A stretch of 64,000 nucleotides of DNA, from positions 434,001-498,000 of the forward strand of contig NZ_OX216966.1 in the NCBI RefSeq assembly GCF_945605565.1. Direction: 5' to 3'. Source of the stretch: Paenibacillus dendritiformis. GTDB lineage: Bacteria; Bacillota; Bacilli; Paenibacillales; Paenibacillaceae. The position numbers and the translations under genes are program-made. This document shows, piece by piece, positions 11,534-32,432 of this stretch (its first letter is position 1; each line of letters opens with the position of its first letter). Below the pieces are notes generated by a model that made no database searches, was not told the DNA's origin, and saw only the letters and a program-made list of their open reading frames with translations.

Positions 11534-11572
11534 GGGAAGCGTAAAAGAGGCAATGCCAACCGCATATTCGTG

Positions 11573-11668
11573 AACACTAGGGGTGCTTGCTTGCAGGCTG
11601 AGAGACGGCGAATCGCTGTTAACCCTTATAACCCGAACTAGATAATACTAGCGTGGGGAAGTGTAGGT
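11573..11668 (+). ncRNA. TPP riboswitch (THI box)
   Basis: The conserved THI-box elements are all present in order: GGGGTGC, GGCTGAGA (about 11597-11604), AACCC, then ACCCGAACTAGATAATACTAGCG and GGGGAAG (about 11630-11662). The aptamer binds thiamine pyrophosphate and should repress the downstream ykoFEDC genes. A terminator 70 bases further on provides the likely transcriptional off-switch. Confidence 0.95.
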
Positions 11669-11734
11669 AGATTACGATGATTCGCGCTCGCCGAAGGAGG
11701 CTTTCCTTCATGGCAGCCGTTCTTCCGTATGGCG

Positions 11735-25956: not shown

Positions 25957-26058
25957 TCCTAGTGATAAAGGCAAACCCATCGAAAGATGGCGACGCAAAG
26001 CTACAGGGGCTTCAGCGATGATACTCGCTATGCCAGCCAGTTACCGATAGAGATAGCT
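25957..26058 (+). ncRNA. c-di-GMP-I (GEMM) riboswitch, first of two
   Basis: The GEMM core is easily read: AAGGCAAACC, GAAA tetraloop stem, GACGCAAAGCTACAGGGGCTTC, and GCCAGCCAGTTACCG at the 3' side, closed by a CTATC.../GATAG helix. It is followed at 26084-26117 by a terminator. The terminator's 5' arm AAGCCC can also pair with GGGGCTT inside the aptamer (about 26006-26012), so ligand binding should free it to terminate. That predicts an OFF switch for the protease gene downstream. Confidence 0.93.
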
Positions 26059-26083: not shown

Positions 26084-26117
26084 AAGCCCTTCTTACTTCG
26101 GTAGGCGGGGCTTTTTC
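26084..26117 (+). terminator. Terminator of the first c-di-GMP riboswitch
   Basis: Stem AAGCCC / GGGCTT with an inner CTTAC-TTCG-GTAGG hairpin, followed by TTTTTC. It lies between the two aptamers. Confidence 0.8.
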
Positions 26118-26152: not shown

Positions 26153-26247
26153 GTATTGACAAAGGCAAACCTGTTGAAAAGCAGGGACGCAAAGCTATAG
26201 GGGCTTCAGCGCCGCCAGCGCTCAGCCAGCCAGCTACCAATATTGAA
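26153..26247 (+). ncRNA. c-di-GMP-I (GEMM) riboswitch, second of two
   Basis: A second full GEMM aptamer (AAGGCAAACC, TGAAAA loop, GGGACGCAAAGCTATAGGGGCTTC, AGCCAGCTACC) closed by GTATTG/CAATAT. No T-run terminator follows. Instead TTGAAGC (26243-26249) can pair either with GCTTCAG in the aptamer (26203-26209) or with the same heptamer at 26322-26328, right next to the AGGAGAG ribosome site. This suggests translational OFF control. Confidence 0.92.
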
Positions 26248-26341: not shown

Positions 26342-26992
26342 ATGAAATGGGACAAGCGTCTGTTGGGCCTGCTTGTATTGGCCGCTATCTTGTTCACGGT
26401 ACCGGTCTATCCGGTTCACGCTGAGGATGCCATTATCGATAAATTAGTCGTGCTGCCAAGCAGTGATTATAATGTCAAGGAAGCCGAAGCCATGAAGGAA
26501 CGGCTGGACAAGATCCCCGCCCGCATTCTGAGCATGCTGTATGACAAGGGCGTCAAAATCAAGCTGACGAACGACATCATTACGAACGAACCGGAGTTAA
26601 GTTATTTGAAGGGCGTTACCCCGCGAGGCTGGGAAGGCACTGGCATGACATGGGACGATGTTCCCGGCGTCAGCGAGCGTGTCGTCGTCGCCCGCATCGG
26701 TTACAGCAAGAAGGGACAGGGACACAATTCGTTCAATCTGGAAATTCACGAGACCATGCATGCGGTCGACCGCATCGTCTTCAATGAAATCAGCAGCACC
26801 GAGGAATTCAAGAACATTTTCAATCAGGAAGCGAACGTCAACTATAACGGGGACGGCTACGTGTCGGTCCATCCGACCGAATACTTCGCGGAGACCGCGA
26901 GCTTGTATGTATACAGCGACGCGACACGGGAAGAACTCAAGGAGACTACCCCGCTCACCTATGAATTCATGGACAAGCTGTTCGCTAGCTAA
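26342..26992 (+). CDS. Secreted Pro-Pro endopeptidase, PPEP-2-like
   Basis: 216 residues: signal peptide (hydrophobic run, cut after VHA, about residue 26), then a small zinc metalloprotease of the PPEP/anthrax lethal factor-like clan. The zinc site is HETMH (about 137-141), with a further Glu in PTEYFAETAS. The loop text GVSERVV contains SERV, the specificity loop reported for Paenibacillus alvei PPEP-2 (PPEP-1 of Clostridioides difficile has GGST). PPEP enzymes cut between two prolines in surface proteins; PPEP-2 prefers PLP-PVP. The convergent neighbour encodes a surface protein with exactly that motif. Two c-di-GMP riboswitches precede it. The ATG has GAGGAGAG 7-8 bases upstream. Confidence 0.93.
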   Translation: MKWDKRLLGLLVLAAILFTVPVYPVHAEDAIIDKLVVLPSSDYNVKEAEAMKERLDKIPARILSMLYDKGVKIKLTNDIITNEPELSYLKGVTPRGWEGTGMTWDDVPGVSERVVVARIGYSKKGQGHNSFNLEIHETMHAVDRIVFNEISSTEEFKNIFNQEANVNYNGDGYVSVHPTEYFAETASLYVYSDATREELKETTPLTYEFMDKLFAS

Positions 26993-27067: not shown

Positions 27068-30000
27068 TTATGGGTATACCCGGTCCGGTTGGATGGAATC
27101 CCACGTCTCATAACCGTCTTCGGAACGGCTGTACTCGTGGTGGTTCGTCGCTTCCAACACATCCGAATAGTACCATTTGCCCGGCTTGTTGTCCGGCCAT
27201 TGCTTCGCATCCTCATGAATATCGGCTGCCTTCACCTTCCGATTCAGCACACTGTTGATGAAAGCCATCGCTTCCGCCCGCGTAATGTACTGGTTCGGCT
27301 TGAAGGTGCCGTCCGGATAACCTTTAATCCAGCCTTTGTTGGCGGCCGATACGATATATTTCTCCGCCCAATGTCCGGAAATATCCGAGAACATGCCGTT
27401 CGCTTGATCATTGAGCTTGTCGAATCGGGACGCAATCGCGGCGAATTCCGCCCGCGTAATCGATTGGCCCGGCTTGAAGGTGCCATCTTGATATCCGGTG
27501 ATGATGCCGGCCCGCTCCATCGTCGAAATATGTTTGTTCGACCAACGCTTCTTGGCTACATCCGAGAACGAATTCTGGTCGGTCAGATAGTTCACGCGGC
27601 TCTCGTTCTCCATCAGACGATAGAAGATGGCGGCGACTTCTTCCCGGCTAATCTGATTCTCCGGCTTCACCGTGCCATCCGGGTAGCCGTTGATGTAGTT
27701 GTAGTGATTCTCCATATCCAGCTTCGGCGGCACCGGCGGCAATGGCGGCACCGGAGGCAGCGGCTTCGGCGACGGCGTTATTGTATACGAGCTACTTTCG
27801 CTGGGATTACCGCCGGAACCCGGATCCGGATTGGACGAATTTTTCGTGTAATAGAAAATGTATTCCTGTCCTTCCGCATCGGTGAACGTGTACGTATCGC
27901 TGGACTTTACCGGCGTATAGCCGGATACCGAGACCGCCGTCAACGTGACTTGGTCGCCCGGCTTGCCGCTCTTCGACGTCGGCGATGCCAGCTGCTTGCC
28001 CGTTCCCTGCTCCAGATACTTCACGGTCACCTGGCGCTCCGTCTGGGATGGGTCCTTTTGGTAGAAAATAGTAAGCACTTGCTCCGATTCGTCACTGAAT
28101 GTATACGGGTAACTTGGATGCTCAGGGTGATACACGGCGCCCGTTACCGTAATCGGAGACGTCCGGTACAGGATCTGCTCGCCGGCTTTGCCTTTGACTC
28201 GCTCGGAGTCTTTCAGCACATGGTTCGTCCCGGCTTCCAGATGGTTAATCGTCAGAAGCTGAATATCCCCATGCTCGCCCTTCACATAGTAGAACGTATA
28301 CTGTTGATCAGGAGCCGTTGTAATCGTGTAAAGCTCATTGAATTTCAGCGGCGTGTATACGGCGTCTGTAACGGTAATCTGATCCGCTCTCAACCACAGC
28401 ACTTCCCCGGCCTTGCCGGAATGAATTGACGGAGCTTGCAGGGCCAGATTCGATTCTTGATCCACGTAGTGAACCGTTACCGTGTACGTCTCGCCTTCAT
28501 CTACTTTGTTGTAGTAGAAGGTGTATTCCTGCTCGGTGTCCGCTGTAACTGTGTACTCCACGCTATAACGTTCTGGCTTGTATACAGCGTCCGTCACCGT
28601 AATGTCTTCCGCTGTCAACGTAATCGTCGAACCAACTTCCCCAGTGCGCGAAGTCGACTCCTTCAGGGATTGTTCCGTCGCCCGATCCACGTAATGCACG
28701 ATGACGGTGCGCTCTTCGCCTGTCGGATCGTCTTTGGTGTAGTAGAACGTATACACTTGGTCAGCTTCCGCCGAGAACGTGTACGTGTGCGTCGCGTTCA
28801 ACGGCTTGTAGCCCGGCACTTCTTCCGCCGTCAGCTCGATGGTCTGCCCGGTTACGCCTTCGAGCATCTTCTCCGCTGCCAGTTCTTTCTCCGTTCCTTG
28901 CTCCAGATACTTCACGGTCAGCGTCTGACTGCTTCCGACGTAATAGAAGATGTATTCGTTCGTTCCTGCTTTGAACGTGTACTCATATTCATCGTTCAAC
29001 GCTGTGTAACCCGGGATCGGCTTCGCTTCCAGCGTTACGGTCTGGCCCGTTGCGCCTTCAACCGTCGTTTCTTCAGCCAGTGCTTTGTCCGTACCTTTTT
29101 CCAGGTACTTCACTGTCACGGTCTGCTTCTCCGCCGTGTAGTAGAACGTATACTCGTTCTTACCTGCTTTGAACGTGTACTCATGCGTATCGTTCTCCGC
29201 TTGATAGCCTGCGATTGGCTTTGCATTCAACGTTACGGTCTCACCCGTTACGCCTTCATGCGTCGTTGCTTCAGCCAATACCTTATCCGTGCCTTTTTCC
29301 AGGTACTTCACGGTTACGGTCTGCTTCTGCGCCTTGTAGTAGAAGATGTACTCCTGATTGGCGTCCGCTGTGAACTTATACGTATGTTCACTTGGCTCTA
29401 CCGGCTCATATCCTTCTACCGGTTTTGCTGTTAGCAGCTTCTCGGAACCCGTTGGGCCTGTGAATGTATCCGGTGCGGCAACTTCGACATCCGTTGTGCC
29501 TTCCAGCAGATACTTCACCGTGACCGTTTGTTCCTTAGCCGTGTAGTAGAACGTATACTCGTTCTTACCGGCTTGGAACGTGTACTCATGCGTATCGTTC
29601 TCCGCTTGATAGCCTGCGATTGGCTTTGCATTCAGCGTTACGGTCTCACCCGTTACGCCTTCATGCGTCGTTGCTTCAGCCAATACCTTATCCGTGCCTT
29701 TTTCCAGGTACTTTACGGTTACGGTCTGCTTCTGAGCCTTGTAGTAGAAAACATGATCCGGATTTTCGCCAGCCTTCAGCTCGTATGTCAGTGTTTTCGG
29801 CTCTTCCGCTTCATAACCCGCAATTTCTTCGGCTTTCAGCGTAAGCTCTTCCCCGGTCTTCCCTGTCTTCACGCTTGGTTCCAGCAGATCCTTGCCTGTA
29901 ACTCGGTCAACGTAGCGAACCTTTACGCTCTGTCCCAATCCGTTGTAGTAGAAGACATGATCTGGGTTTTCATCGGCCTTCAGCTCATATGTCACTGTTT

Positions 30001-32125
30001 TCGGCTCTTCCGCTTCATAGCCCGCAATTTCTTCGGCTTTCAGCGTAAGCTCTTCCCCGGTCTTCCCTGTCTTCACAATTGGGGCCAGCAATTCCTTGCC
30101 GGTTCCACGGTCCACATAGCGCACCTTTACGCTCTGCTCTGTCCCGTTGTAGTAGAAGACATGATCCGGATTTTCGCCGGCTTTTAGCACGTATTCCACG
30201 GTTGTCGGCTTTTCCGCTTCATATCCCGCAACATGTGCGGCTTCCAGCGTCAGTATTTCTCCCGTCTTCCCTGTCTTCACGCTTGGTTCCAGCAGATCCT
30301 TGCCTGTTGCCCGGTCTACGTAACGGACTTTTACGCTTTGATCTTTTGCGGTGTAATGAAAAGTAATCGTTACATCCTTGCCAGGCATCACGCCCGTTAC
30401 ATGCCCGTTGTCCACAGTGAGTCCGCTGCCCTCGCTAACCTCGACATTGGCGAACTCGTATCCGGCGAAATTCTTGCTGGTTACATCAATCGATTCGCCG
30501 GGCTTTTTGTCCGCATCGCTGCGCTCCAGCACCTTGTCTCCCGATTGGTGAACAATCGTCAGCTTGTTAGGGACATCATTGTAACCGAACCAAATAATTG
30601 GCGAAGGCTTGCTTACCGTCAAATCAACTTTCGTTGGGTTGTCGCCAACTCTTAACGTGTAACCTGGCACTGTTGGCGCAGGTACGGTATAGGATTTGCC
30701 GACCTCAAGCGCGTCGCTTCCATCCTCCTCGTGATAGCGGCTGTACAGCTCTTGGGCCAAATCCGGGCGCTCGACTTCTTGACCGTCTGAATTGACCGGC
30801 TTGCCGTTGGCGTTGACCTTATACGCCTTGACGAGAATCGAACCTTTGCCCAAGCCCACTCTCGGCACTTCGAAATCCTTCGATGTACGATCACCTTTGG
30901 CATCGGTGTAATTCATCGTCGTTGTCTTATTGGTCGGGTACAATTGTTTCGGATCCGGGTTTTTGGAATGATCCATTTTGACCCGGTAAGTAAGCGTCGC
31001 CGGATTGCCTTCCGTAACATTGCCGATGTTCCAGGTAAACGTTTCGGTTTGCGGGTTCCAGGTTACCTCCCCTTGAGAGGCCTTGTAGTCGTCCGGGCCG
31101 AAGGAGCTTCCCTTCAACTTCAGGTCGAACATGTCTCCCATCGGGTCAGTGACTACCGCATTCTCTGCGGCAAAGGCAATTTTGCTGGCCAGTTCGGAGA
31201 AGATTCGCTCCAGACTGTCGCTGGTGCCCGAATAATAGCCTTTGTTCGCAACATCCTTCAGCGTATTGGTAGCATTGCTATTGCTGCCGACATCCAACCC
31301 AATAGAATAAATATGAATTCCTGCATCATGGGCCAGCTTGGCTTCGGAAATCGTGCCGATGCCATTGTCTTTAATTTCAAACTCATAGCTGCAGCTCCAC
31401 CAACCACAAGTTTCCTTGCCCAAACCATACCAGCTAGATCCTAGGCTATAACTGGAGCCCGACCCGATAATGTTTTTGTAGTTAAAATCAGAAAGGATAA
31501 ACTGATGGCTATTATTTCCCCATGAACCTTTTACTGCAGCAGACGCCTTGTAACTATACGTCGGCTCCCCGTCACTCAGCAGAACGATCACTTTGTTCTT
31601 GGCCTGGCTTGTCTTTAAAAGCTCCTGAGCTTCGTGCAGTCCGGCCTGAATATTTGTTCCCCCGGTCGCCTGTATATTATCAATGGCACGTTTCAATTCC
31701 GTCTTCTGGTCAAGGCCCTTGAAGTCAGATACCTGATCAGAAGTCTTATTGAAGGTCACTACTGCAATTCTCGTGTCCGAGTCTTCAATCAACAGATTGT
31801 CAACGAATTTCTTGGCTGCATCCTTCGCCTTTGGCAATCGATTCTGGTTCGGTTTTTGGGTCATGCTTCCCGACTTGTCGATTACGAGCACGATATCCGA
31901 GGAGCCCGATTTCAGGTTCTTGCCTTCGACTGTCAGTGTAATATCCCATTCATCCAGCTTGCCTTCAACCGGGTTCGCTTCCTTCGTGAGCTTCACGGCT
32001 CCCGGATTCGGCCACTCAAGCTCCCCGGAATTCGCCGCCTGGGCCCCGAGCGTGCCCGGAATCGTCCCAAATGCGACACTCAACATACACAACCATGTGA
32101 CTAGTAGTCTGAATCGGCGTTTCAT
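27068..32125 (-). CDS. vWA-MucBP-SLH surface adhesin (VMSP-like), PPEP substrate
   Basis: 1685 residues. Order: signal peptide (1-30); von Willebrand A domain (about 76-325) with intact MIDAS DKSGS (83-87); a connecting region; about twelve MucBP/beta-grasp repeats (about 593-1430), each starting near VKVRYVD or VTVKYLE and ending near FYY; a Pro-rich linker with two overlapping PLPPVP motifs (about 1453-1469); three SLH repeats (1470-1685) for cell-wall polymer binding. The PLPPVP motif is the PPEP-2 cleavage site and sits just outside the anchor, so cutting would release the whole adhesive part. The convergent protease gene ends 75 bases away. ATG 32125 has GAGGAG. The leader carries a promoter, an apparent c-di-GMP-I-like aptamer and a terminator. 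Confidence 0.93.
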   Translation of the reverse strand: MKRRFRLLVTWLCMLSVAFGTIPGTLGAQAANSGELEWPNPGAVKLTKEANPVEGKLDEWDITLTVEGKNLKSGSSDIVLVIDKSGSMTQKPNQNRLPKAKDAAKKFVDNLLIEDSDTRIAVVTFNKTSDQVSDFKGLDQKTELKRAIDNIQATGGTNIQAGLHEAQELLKTSQAKNKVIVLLSDGEPTYSYKASAAVKGSWGNNSHQFILSDFNYKNIIGSGSSYSLGSSWYGLGKETCGWWSCSYEFEIKDNGIGTISEAKLAHDAGIHIYSIGLDVGSNSNATNTLKDVANKGYYSGTSDSLERIFSELASKIAFAAENAVVTDPMGDMFDLKLKGSSFGPDDYKASQGEVTWNPQTETFTWNIGNVTEGNPATLTYRVKMDHSKNPDPKQLYPTNKTTTMNYTDAKGDRTSKDFEVPRVGLGKGSILVKAYKVNANGKPVNSDGQEVERPDLAQELYSRYHEEDGSDALEVGKSYTVPAPTVPGYTLRVGDNPTKVDLTVSKPSPIIWFGYNDVPNKLTIVHQSGDKVLERSDADKKPGESIDVTSKNFAGYEFANVEVSEGSGLTVDNGHVTGVMPGKDVTITFHYTAKDQSVKVRYVDRATGKDLLEPSVKTGKTGEILTLEAAHVAGYEAEKPTTVEYVLKAGENPDHVFYYNGTEQSVKVRYVDRGTGKELLAPIVKTGKTGEELTLKAEEIAGYEAEEPKTVTYELKADENPDHVFYYNGLGQSVKVRYVDRVTGKDLLEPSVKTGKTGEELTLKAEEIAGYEAEEPKTLTYELKAGENPDHVFYYKAQKQTVTVKYLEKGTDKVLAEATTHEGVTGETVTLNAKPIAGYQAENDTHEYTFQAGKNEYTFYYTAKEQTVTVKYLLEGTTDVEVAAPDTFTGPTGSEKLLTAKPVEGYEPVEPSEHTYKFTADANQEYIFYYKAQKQTVTVKYLEKGTDKVLAEATTHEGVTGETVTLNAKPIAGYQAENDTHEYTFKAGKNEYTFYYTAEKQTVTVKYLEKGTDKALAEETTVEGATGQTVTLEAKPIPGYTALNDEYEYTFKAGTNEYIFYYVGSSQTLTVKYLEQGTEKELAAEKMLEGVTGQTIELTAEEVPGYKPLNATHTYTFSAEADQVYTFYYTKDDPTGEERTVIVHYVDRATEQSLKESTSRTGEVGSTITLTAEDITVTDAVYKPERYSVEYTVTADTEQEYTFYYNKVDEGETYTVTVHYVDQESNLALQAPSIHSGKAGEVLWLRADQITVTDAVYTPLKFNELYTITTAPDQQYTFYYVKGEHGDIQLLTINHLEAGTNHVLKDSERVKGKAGEQILYRTSPITVTGAVYHPEHPSYPYTFSDESEQVLTIFYQKDPSQTERQVTVKYLEQGTGKQLASPTSKSGKPGDQVTLTAVSVSGYTPVKSSDTYTFTDAEGQEYIFYYTKNSSNPDPGSGGNPSESSSYTITPSPKPLPPVPPLPPVPPKLDMENHYNYINGYPDGTVKPENQISREEVAAIFYRLMENESRVNYLTDQNSFSDVAKKRWSNKHISTMERAGIITGYQDGTFKPGQSITRAEFAAIASRFDKLNDQANGMFSDISGHWAEKYIVSAANKGWIKGYPDGTFKPNQYITRAEAMAFINSVLNRKVKAADIHEDAKQWPDNKPGKWYYSDVLEATNHHEYSRSEDGYETWDSIQPDRVYP
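27719..27769 (-). other. Segment encoding the Pro-Pro cleavage linker
   Basis: This stretch encodes PKPLPPVPPLPPVPPKL, with two overlapping PLPPVP hexamers between the Ser/Pro-rich stalk and the first SLH repeat. PPEP-2 is known to cut such sites as PLP-PVP. Confidence 0.85.
29141..29345 (-). repeat. Near-identical MucBP module, copy 1
   Basis: About 205 bases that recur almost unchanged at 29549-29753 (only a handful of differences visible), encoding the module with GTDKVLAEATTHEG. This indicates recent internal duplication or gene conversion in the adhesin. Confidence 0.8.
29549..29753 (-). repeat. Near-identical MucBP module, copy 2
   Basis: The partner of 29141-29345, offset by 408 bases (two modules). 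Slippage or recombination between them would add or remove two modules in frame. Confidence 0.8.
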
Positions 32126-32135
32126 AGTTTCCTCC

Positions 32136-32147
32136 TCATTTTTTCAT
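32136..32147 (-). other. Three-codon leader frame MKK ahead of the adhesin gene
   Basis: AAGGAGG, seven bases, then ATG AAA AAA TGA. Its stop is 10 bases before the adhesin start and overlaps that gene's GAGGAGG site. It could tune ribosome loading; function is not shown. Confidence 0.35.
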
Positions 32148-32237: not shown

Positions 32238-32286
32238 AAAAATAAAAAATCCGGCTGCAATTTAACGATTGTTAAATGCAGCCGGA
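32238..32286 (-). terminator. Intrinsic terminator in the adhesin leader
   Basis: A 16-bp stem TCCGGCTGCATTTAAC / GTTAAAT(T)GCAGCCGGA with one bulged base, followed on the minus strand by TTTTTTATTTTT. It lies between promoter and start codon, so it must be conditional. Confidence 0.9.
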
Positions 32287-32287
32287 C

Positions 32288-32360
32288 GATCATGGGCCTG
32301 ACGACCTTTAGATTCCTAAGCTTTGCGGCCTAATCTTTCGATTAGTGTGCCCTATGTAGT
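32288..32360 (-). ncRNA. Putative divergent c-di-GMP-I (GEMM-like) riboswitch of the adhesin gene
   Basis: Read on the minus strand: AGGGCACACTAATC, GAAA loop, GATTAG, GCCGCAAAGC, a short TTAG-GAAT-CTAA hairpin, AGGTCGTC and AGGCCCATG. This parallels the Vibrio Vc2 aptamer order AGGGCAAACC, GAAA stem, GACGCAAAGC, P3, AGGTAGC...ACC, with a closing helix CAT(A)GGGC/GCCCATG. The ligand-contact positions (third G of GGGC, middle A of GCAAAGC) appear kept; P3 is much shorter than normal. It is directly followed by an intrinsic terminator. The assignment is by eye and needs a covariance search. Confidence 0.6.
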
Positions 32361-32403
32361 TGTTGTATCCAATCATACCCAGCTAAAGCACTATTCAATG
32401 CTC

Positions 32404-32432
32404 AATATATGGGACAGCTTCCTATTTGTCAA
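32404..32432 (-). promoter_or_regulatory. Promoter of the adhesin gene
   Basis: Minus-strand TTGACA (32427-32432), 17-base spacer and TATATT (32404-32409), a near-consensus sigma-A promoter. It predicts a leader of about 270 bases containing the aptamer-like RNA and terminator. Confidence 0.8.

Follow-up and report, generated by a model that had tools for sequence, protein, structure and literature searches.

A predicted class I ON c-di-GMP riboswitch of a Paenibacillus adhesin gene faces tandem class I aptamers of a PPEP-2-like protease gene

The window analysed here is a 64,000-nt stretch of a Paenibacillus dendritiformis genome in which genes for a secreted protease and a large surface adhesin converge. 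The protease gene (26342–26992, plus strand) codes for a 216 aa protein that matches the Pfam family ATLF (PF07737) and has no match in NCBIfam. Its best PDB match is 6fpc (319.8 bits over residues 28–215), with the next Pro-Pro endopeptidase and Zmp1 chains scoring 179.5 bits or less; 6FPC is reported to be PPEP-2 (PMC7765274). The product is accordingly described as a PPEP-2-like secreted Pro-Pro endopeptidase, and cleavage at Pro-Pro bonds is predicted for it from this similarity.

The adhesin gene (27068–32125, minus strand) encodes a VMSP-like protein of 1685 aa with VWA and GBS104-type Ig domains, seven MucBP and three SLH stretches; the closest named N-terminus is also from P. dendritiformis (96%). 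Two PLPPVP motifs (27728–27763, minus strand) lie between the repeats and the SLH part, directly before the latter, and PLPPVP is the reported cleavage sequence of PPEP-2 (PMC10413326). A PPXP motif is present in 15/15 switch-side relatives whose frame reaches an SLH-type end (L060–L065, L067, L070, L074–L077, L079, L081 and L090), a count that leaves out the truncated, masked or split frames of L066, L068, L069, L072 and L080; the SLH-side piece of L080 (L053) carries the motif. The adhesin of Paenibacillus sp. 32O-W (L078) ends in an LPQTG motif and not in SLH domains, and the C-terminus of J2TS4 (L073) looks similar to it.

The adhesin leader begins with a SigA-type promoter (TTGACA—17 bp—TATATT; 32404–32432, minus strand) matching the consensus at 11 of 12 positions, so that the near-consensus promoter named in a first-pass annotation of this DNA is present; in 22 of 25 leaders the aptamer is preceded by the pattern TTGAC...TA(N3)T, the exceptions being L078, L089 and L091. 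It is followed by a c-di-GMP-I aptamer (RF01051; 32274–32361, minus strand) that aligns to model positions 1–87 of 87 with 63.8 bits, far above the gathering score of 35 (E values of 3.7e-10 for the 64-kb window and 4.7e-12 for 801 bases). The first-pass annotation had proposed a divergent c-di-GMP-I-like aptamer here from its parts, namely AGGGCACAC, a GAAA-capped stem, GCCGCAAAGC, an apical hairpin and AGGCCCATG, and all of these fall, in that order and on the minus strand, within the single covariance-model match. The P3 helix had been described as shrunken, which does not hold, since the cmscan alignment runs from end to end of the model with no deletions, one inserted base and no non-standard pairs; likewise divergence is confined to the score and to some bases (A15C, A34 to C or U and C84A in model numbering) and does not extend to the architecture. 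The stem with the GAAA tetraloop (32330–32345, minus strand), which we take to be P2, has changes on both sides at four of its six pairs, and a P3-type helix with the 3′ strand TCCGGCT (32280–32322, minus strand) is placed by the model alignment, strand comparison and covariation. Three positions presumably correspond to residues of Vc2, in a numbering that we assume: a G at 32350 to the ligand contact G20 (where an A would suggest cGAMP), an A at 32323 to A47 and a C at 32278 to C92 (all minus strand). All three are invariant in 23/23 aligned leaders, in keeping with the earlier claim that the contact G and A are retained.

An intrinsic terminator hairpin (32249–32287, minus strand; −24.8 kcal/mol) with a T-run from 32248 comes next. 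A terminator had been anticipated here, but the stem folds as 17 pairs with one bulge and not as the 16 bp given previously. A simple terminator scan did not list 32287–32249, we think because of the bulge. The first 14 bases of the hairpin (32287–32274) lie within the aptamer match. Closer to the gene, a mini-ORF (ATG AAA AAA TGA; 32136–32147, minus strand) with its own AGGAGG overlaps the ribosome-binding site of the adhesin gene. It recurs in 14 of the 25 leaders inspected as well as in G015 and G018, and this conservation suggests either coupled translation or an additional level of control. Elsewhere in the window there is a TPP riboswitch (11569–11676, plus strand; 75.8 bits).

A scan with the adhesin N-terminus gave 41 loci, and the RF01051 search covered the 34 that were mapped (28 and 6 further). 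Twenty-three of the 34 have an RF01051 match beginning no more than 700 nt upstream of the adhesin match, comprising all 20/20 Paenibacillaceae, one locus labelled Neobacillus mesonae, one Sedimentibacter and one Clostridiaceae MAG; six Bacillaceae loci (L082–L086 and L092) have no RF01051 match within those 700 nt. The counts leave out L071, L073 and the distant, unmapped matches L096–L100, as well as L088 (aptamer start 832 nt upstream) and L095 (759 nt upstream), both past the 700-nt limit. Adding the window, G015, G018 and the second leader copy of Paenibacillus sp. 2.1 to the 23 loci gives 27 adhesin-type leaders, and 23 of these 27 were aligned for base and covariation counts; the four not aligned are L060, G015 and G018, which lie close to the window in sequence, and L089, which has no terminator. 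The adhesins behind the aligned leaders are as little as 54% identical within Paenibacillus and 38% identical in Sedimentibacter. In the alignment 99.6% of the 506 aptamer cells are paired, and 9 of 22 pairs have changed on both sides; none of 500 shuffles reached any of these measures. Pairing is thus conserved with compensatory changes in orthologous leaders, which, along with the covariance-model score, answers both of the sequence comparisons proposed in the first-pass annotation in favour of an aptamer. In the terminator stem 93.7% of cells are paired and just one of 11 pairs has changed on both sides. Such constraint is expected where one strand takes part in two structures, and the stem adds no covariation evidence of its own.

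The 5′ arm of the terminator contains the same bases as the 3′ strand of P3 (TCCGGCT, the outer P3 pairs), and in 26 of the 27 adhesin-type leaders it begins 10–21 nt inside the aptamer end; the exception is L089, for which no terminator was returned. Folding of successive prefixes of the leader gives P3 base pairing of 0.86–0.91 up to 105 nt and 0.24 at 108 nt, and at full length the terminator has a probability of 0.95. The minimum energy of the leader is −41.0 kcal/mol unconstrained versus −27.3 kcal/mol with the aptamer forced. The 11-nt complement to the aptamer 3′ strand was reached in none of 2000 shuffles of the tail (mean 4.8). For the 3′ arm of the window terminator, the 5′ arm offers an 11-nt partner and the remaining upstream sequence at most 4 nt; in the leaders that have a terminator (26), the corresponding lengths are 9–12 nt and 4–8 nt, and the value of 8 nt comes from the second leader copy of Paenibacillus sp. 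2.1. Because the terminator 5′ arm is the P3 3′ strand, a ligand-held aptamer and the terminator would be mutually exclusive, which is an ON design, and we infer both this direction and c-di-GMP as the ligand from the anatomy of the leader.

Overlap between aptamer and terminator was also scored outside the adhesin leaders, in 31 readable class I aptamers from the genus (the short loci L008 and L010 were dropped). Eight of the 31 score strongly (L002, L014–L016, L018, L019, L025 and L034; by eye these look like antiterminators) and five weakly (L001, L009, L012, L022 and L033), so the criterion alone is no proof of an ON switch and was rejected as a general ON/OFF classifier for want of specificity. 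What argues for ON control of the adhesin is instead that its hairpin is compact and that the 3′ arm lacks a competing partner.

The protease gene is preceded by two class I aptamers (RF01051) on the plus strand, at 25960–26048 (78 bits) and 26154–26241 (78.5 bits), in agreement with the two c-di-GMP-I switches recognised on this side in the first pass. A terminator hairpin followed by a T-run lies past aptamer 1 (26084–26113, plus strand; −15.9 kcal/mol), and TTACCGA at the 3′ end of the aptamer (26041–26047, plus strand) is complementary to TCGGTAG within the terminator (26098–26104, plus strand), the two forming a proposed antiterminator. Fifteen leaders of this type are readable (L090 is masked), and TACCG (TGCCG in L074) in the aptamer 3′ end with its complement CGGTA in the terminator is present in 15/15 and is the longest run found by the script in 11 of the 15. 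The terminator starts 28–36 nt downstream of aptamer 1 in 10 of these leaders; in L067, L069, L070 and L074 the script returned a longer hairpin beginning in the aptamer 3′ end, and in L063 it found no terminator past aptamer 1 though the letters of a hairpin are visible, a miss that we think reflects its T-run rule. An alternative antiterminator, GGGGCTT/AAGCCC, was dropped because several relatives lack that complement but retain TACCG/CGGTA. A downstream terminator and a conserved antiterminator strand in the aptamer 3′ end are the arrangement expected of an OFF switch, and the protease switch after aptamer 1 looks OFF on these grounds. No terminator was found past aptamer 2 within the window, nor in other relatives, where the stretch includes masked bases, and translational control by aptamer 2 is possible in the window; in P. 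apiarius (L063/L030) aptamer 2 has a terminator of its own 32 nt behind it. A consensus scan gave no promoter on the protease side.

The convergent arrangement is conserved. Of 17 Paenibacillaceae loci with sufficient flanking sequence, 14 have aptamers on the opposite strand that converge with the adhesin, as does L090; L066, L068 and L072, whose contigs end too early, are outside the 17, and in all 14 the adhesin-side and protease-side matches are on one contig (as checked by contig number). Among the others, L075 and L076 have the adhesin switch and no protease-side aptamer within 8 kb, and in L078 the aptamers are on the same strand as the adhesin, downstream of it. In three of the 14 (L061, L067 and L081) the second aptamer is absent from the hits or cut short, with masked bases in L061 and L081. 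By coordinates, 9 of 19 genomes of the genus of the window have the convergent set, including Paenibacillus alvei DSM 29 (L080/G002), the organism of PPEP-2, which carries the same three aptamers. At these other loci the protease beside the adhesin is read from the aptamers and, for P. alvei, from the literature, not from a protease sequence.

Taken as a whole, the locus very probably constitutes a circuit in which a class I ON switch of the adhesin faces a class I OFF switch of the protease, and a single messenger sets the two genes oppositely; the anatomy favours the earlier suggestion that protease and substrate are under opposite control by two type I platforms. At low c-di-GMP the P3 3′ strand would leave the aptamer and become the 5′ arm of the 17-pair terminator, and transcription would end ~120 nt ahead of the adhesin start codon. 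When c-di-GMP is high, the aptamer, held by its ligand, would retain the strand and polymerase would enter the adhesin gene. In the protease mRNA the free 3′ end of aptamer 1 would pair with the terminator as an antiterminator, and ligand binding would let the terminator form. High c-di-GMP would then give adhesin and no protease, and as c-di-GMP falls adhesin synthesis would halt and the protease, now released, would cleave the adhesin at the PLPPVP motifs that separate the repeats from the SLH anchor. The genome has eight matches to GGDEF domains.

One alternative is that the adhesin switch too is OFF, by way of an antiterminator that escaped detection, in which case both genes would go off together. 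Class I switches of C. difficile have been termed uniformly OFF, and one C. difficile gene, behind Cdi-1-1, is reported to have risen more than 30-fold (PMC6200980); the protease-side switches of this locus look OFF as well, and some relatives have a second upstream complement of up to 8 nt to the terminator 3′ arm. This alternative is nevertheless improbable: a bound aptamer opposes the terminator wherever the two share a strand, as they do in 26 of 27 leaders, the terminator of the window lacks a second upstream partner longer than 4 nt, and there is a precedent for a class I ON switch in an adhesin leader in Bc2/cap.

The ON reading leaves the identity of the ligand as a separate matter, on which the bases of the aptamer bear. 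In model numbering, A15 is replaced by C and A34 by C or U in 22/23 aligned leaders, and C84 by A in 23/23; this last site, a C in the Rfam consensus, is the one that we take to be C93, presumably part of the closing contact of P1, so that an outer ligand contact may be missing. A subgroup this divergent might sense another cyclic dinucleotide (e.g. 3′,3′-cGAMP) in place of c-di-GMP. We regard this as very improbable, as the G at the presumed G20 site is invariant in all 23 leaders and the A15C/A34U swap is also found in L020, ahead of a gene outside the adhesin/protease system. GEMM-I relatives specific for cGAMP are on record, and it is the change G20A that lets a class I GEMM aptamer accept cGAMP, as described in PMC6274999. 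The A15/A34 swap was also considered as a private signature of the adhesin leaders and rejected, since L020 has it and the Sedimentibacter leader does not; the gene behind the L020 aptamer, which has the adhesin-type C/U swap, resembles a gamma-glutamyltransferase by eye. That the aptamer is a relic, decaying or already silent, and that the adhesin is simply attenuated constitutively by the terminator, as the aptamer's lower score beside the protease aptamers and the A at the presumed C93 site might suggest, is barely credible given the strong compensatory change and the invariance of the presumed ligand-contact positions across 23 leaders.

With c-di-GMP retained as the likely ligand, the same bases allow a further reading, in which the adhesin leaders are a distinct class I subtype with a higher c-di-GMP threshold than the two canonical protease aptamers. 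The features of such a subtype would be an internal loop changed from A/A to C/C or C/U, no C at the presumed C93 site and a weak or absent P1; a P1 pairing test gave 4.48 for 21 adhesin leaders versus 4.58 permuted (377/500), and 5.0 for 25 other aptamers versus 4.77 permuted (61/500). The reading is doubtful. If it were true, the protease would go off first and the adhesin on second, with the order reversed on detachment, and shedding and synthesis would never overlap.

Parts of this design have counterparts elsewhere. As a member of RF01051 the adhesin aptamer is matched over its full length with all model pairs and keeps the presumed contact G, A and C, and its subgroup differs in having C and C/U for the two model A residues and A at the presumed C93 site. 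The Bc2 RNA of Bacillus thuringiensis (cap/cbpA) is likewise a class I aptamer with an intrinsic terminator and an adhesin target, and measurements show it to be an ON switch; its target, a collagen adhesin, belongs to the MSCRAMM/Cna_B type whereas the adhesin of the window is VWA/MucBP/SLH, and the text available of the two reports describes no paired protease switch (PMC4933901; PMC7423583). In C. difficile, PPEP-1 is reported to be under a class I OFF switch and the CD2831 and CD3246 adhesins under class II ON switches (PMC6200980; PMC11477304; PMC6366702), so that there, too, c-di-GMP riboswitches set a protease and its adhesin substrates oppositely; here, however, the adhesin switch is class I, the adhesin has SLH domains and the genes are convergent. 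There is no c-di-GMP-II (RF01786) match at the gathering score in the 64-kb window, and the single class II switch found in the genome is at 1045282. PPEP-2 and VMSP of P. alvei share with the window adjacent genes for protease and substrate and the PLPPVP site (according to PMC10413326). The words "riboswitch" and "c-di-GMP" are absent from PMC10413326 and PMC12828418, as is "riboswitch" from a paper on SLH proteins (PMC3776848), and the literature searched, which did not extend to the original 2018 PPEP-2 paper, held no paper on riboswitches at PPEP-2/VMSP. The pilM (cGAMP, ON) and Cd1 (c-di-GMP, OFF) switches place the 3′ strand of homologous aptamers in a terminator and an antiterminator respectively (as reported in PMC9262584), the same strand logic as proposed for the adhesin ON and protease OFF switches; they belong to two organisms and two ligands, whereas here both designs are at one locus, with presumably one ligand.

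Class I ON control of an adhesin is thus already known, as is opposite c-di-GMP control of a Pro-Pro endopeptidase and adhesins in C. difficile, and the aptamer itself belongs to RF01051; what would be new is the face-to-face circuit of class I ON and class I OFF switches proposed here. It predicts the attach/release logic of C. difficile across many Paenibacillaceae by a different RNA solution, in which two expression platforms of opposite sense, both built on one aptamer class, face each other within a single locus. Should this be confirmed, the circuit would provide a natural matched pair for how the same aptamer acquires ON or OFF wiring and a regulatory context for PPEP-2/VMSP, and would suggest that opposite control of protease and substrate, and not the class of RNA, is the selected property.

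Further class I switches lie outside this system. Another class I switch of the genome (L002, 1501–1590) is ahead of a gene for a secreted CAP-domain protein, and two hairpins appear by eye to compete past its aptamer. Switches are also located ahead of a phosphopantetheinyl transferase-like/NRPS-like region (L001) and a GH18-like secreted protein (L004), both named by eye. In Paenibacillus sp. 2.1 the second ON-type leader (L039, 593–711; L052) precedes a surface frame with RCC1 repeats, and a further overlapping frame with MucBP and SLH domains and a PLPPAP motif resembles a second protease substrate.
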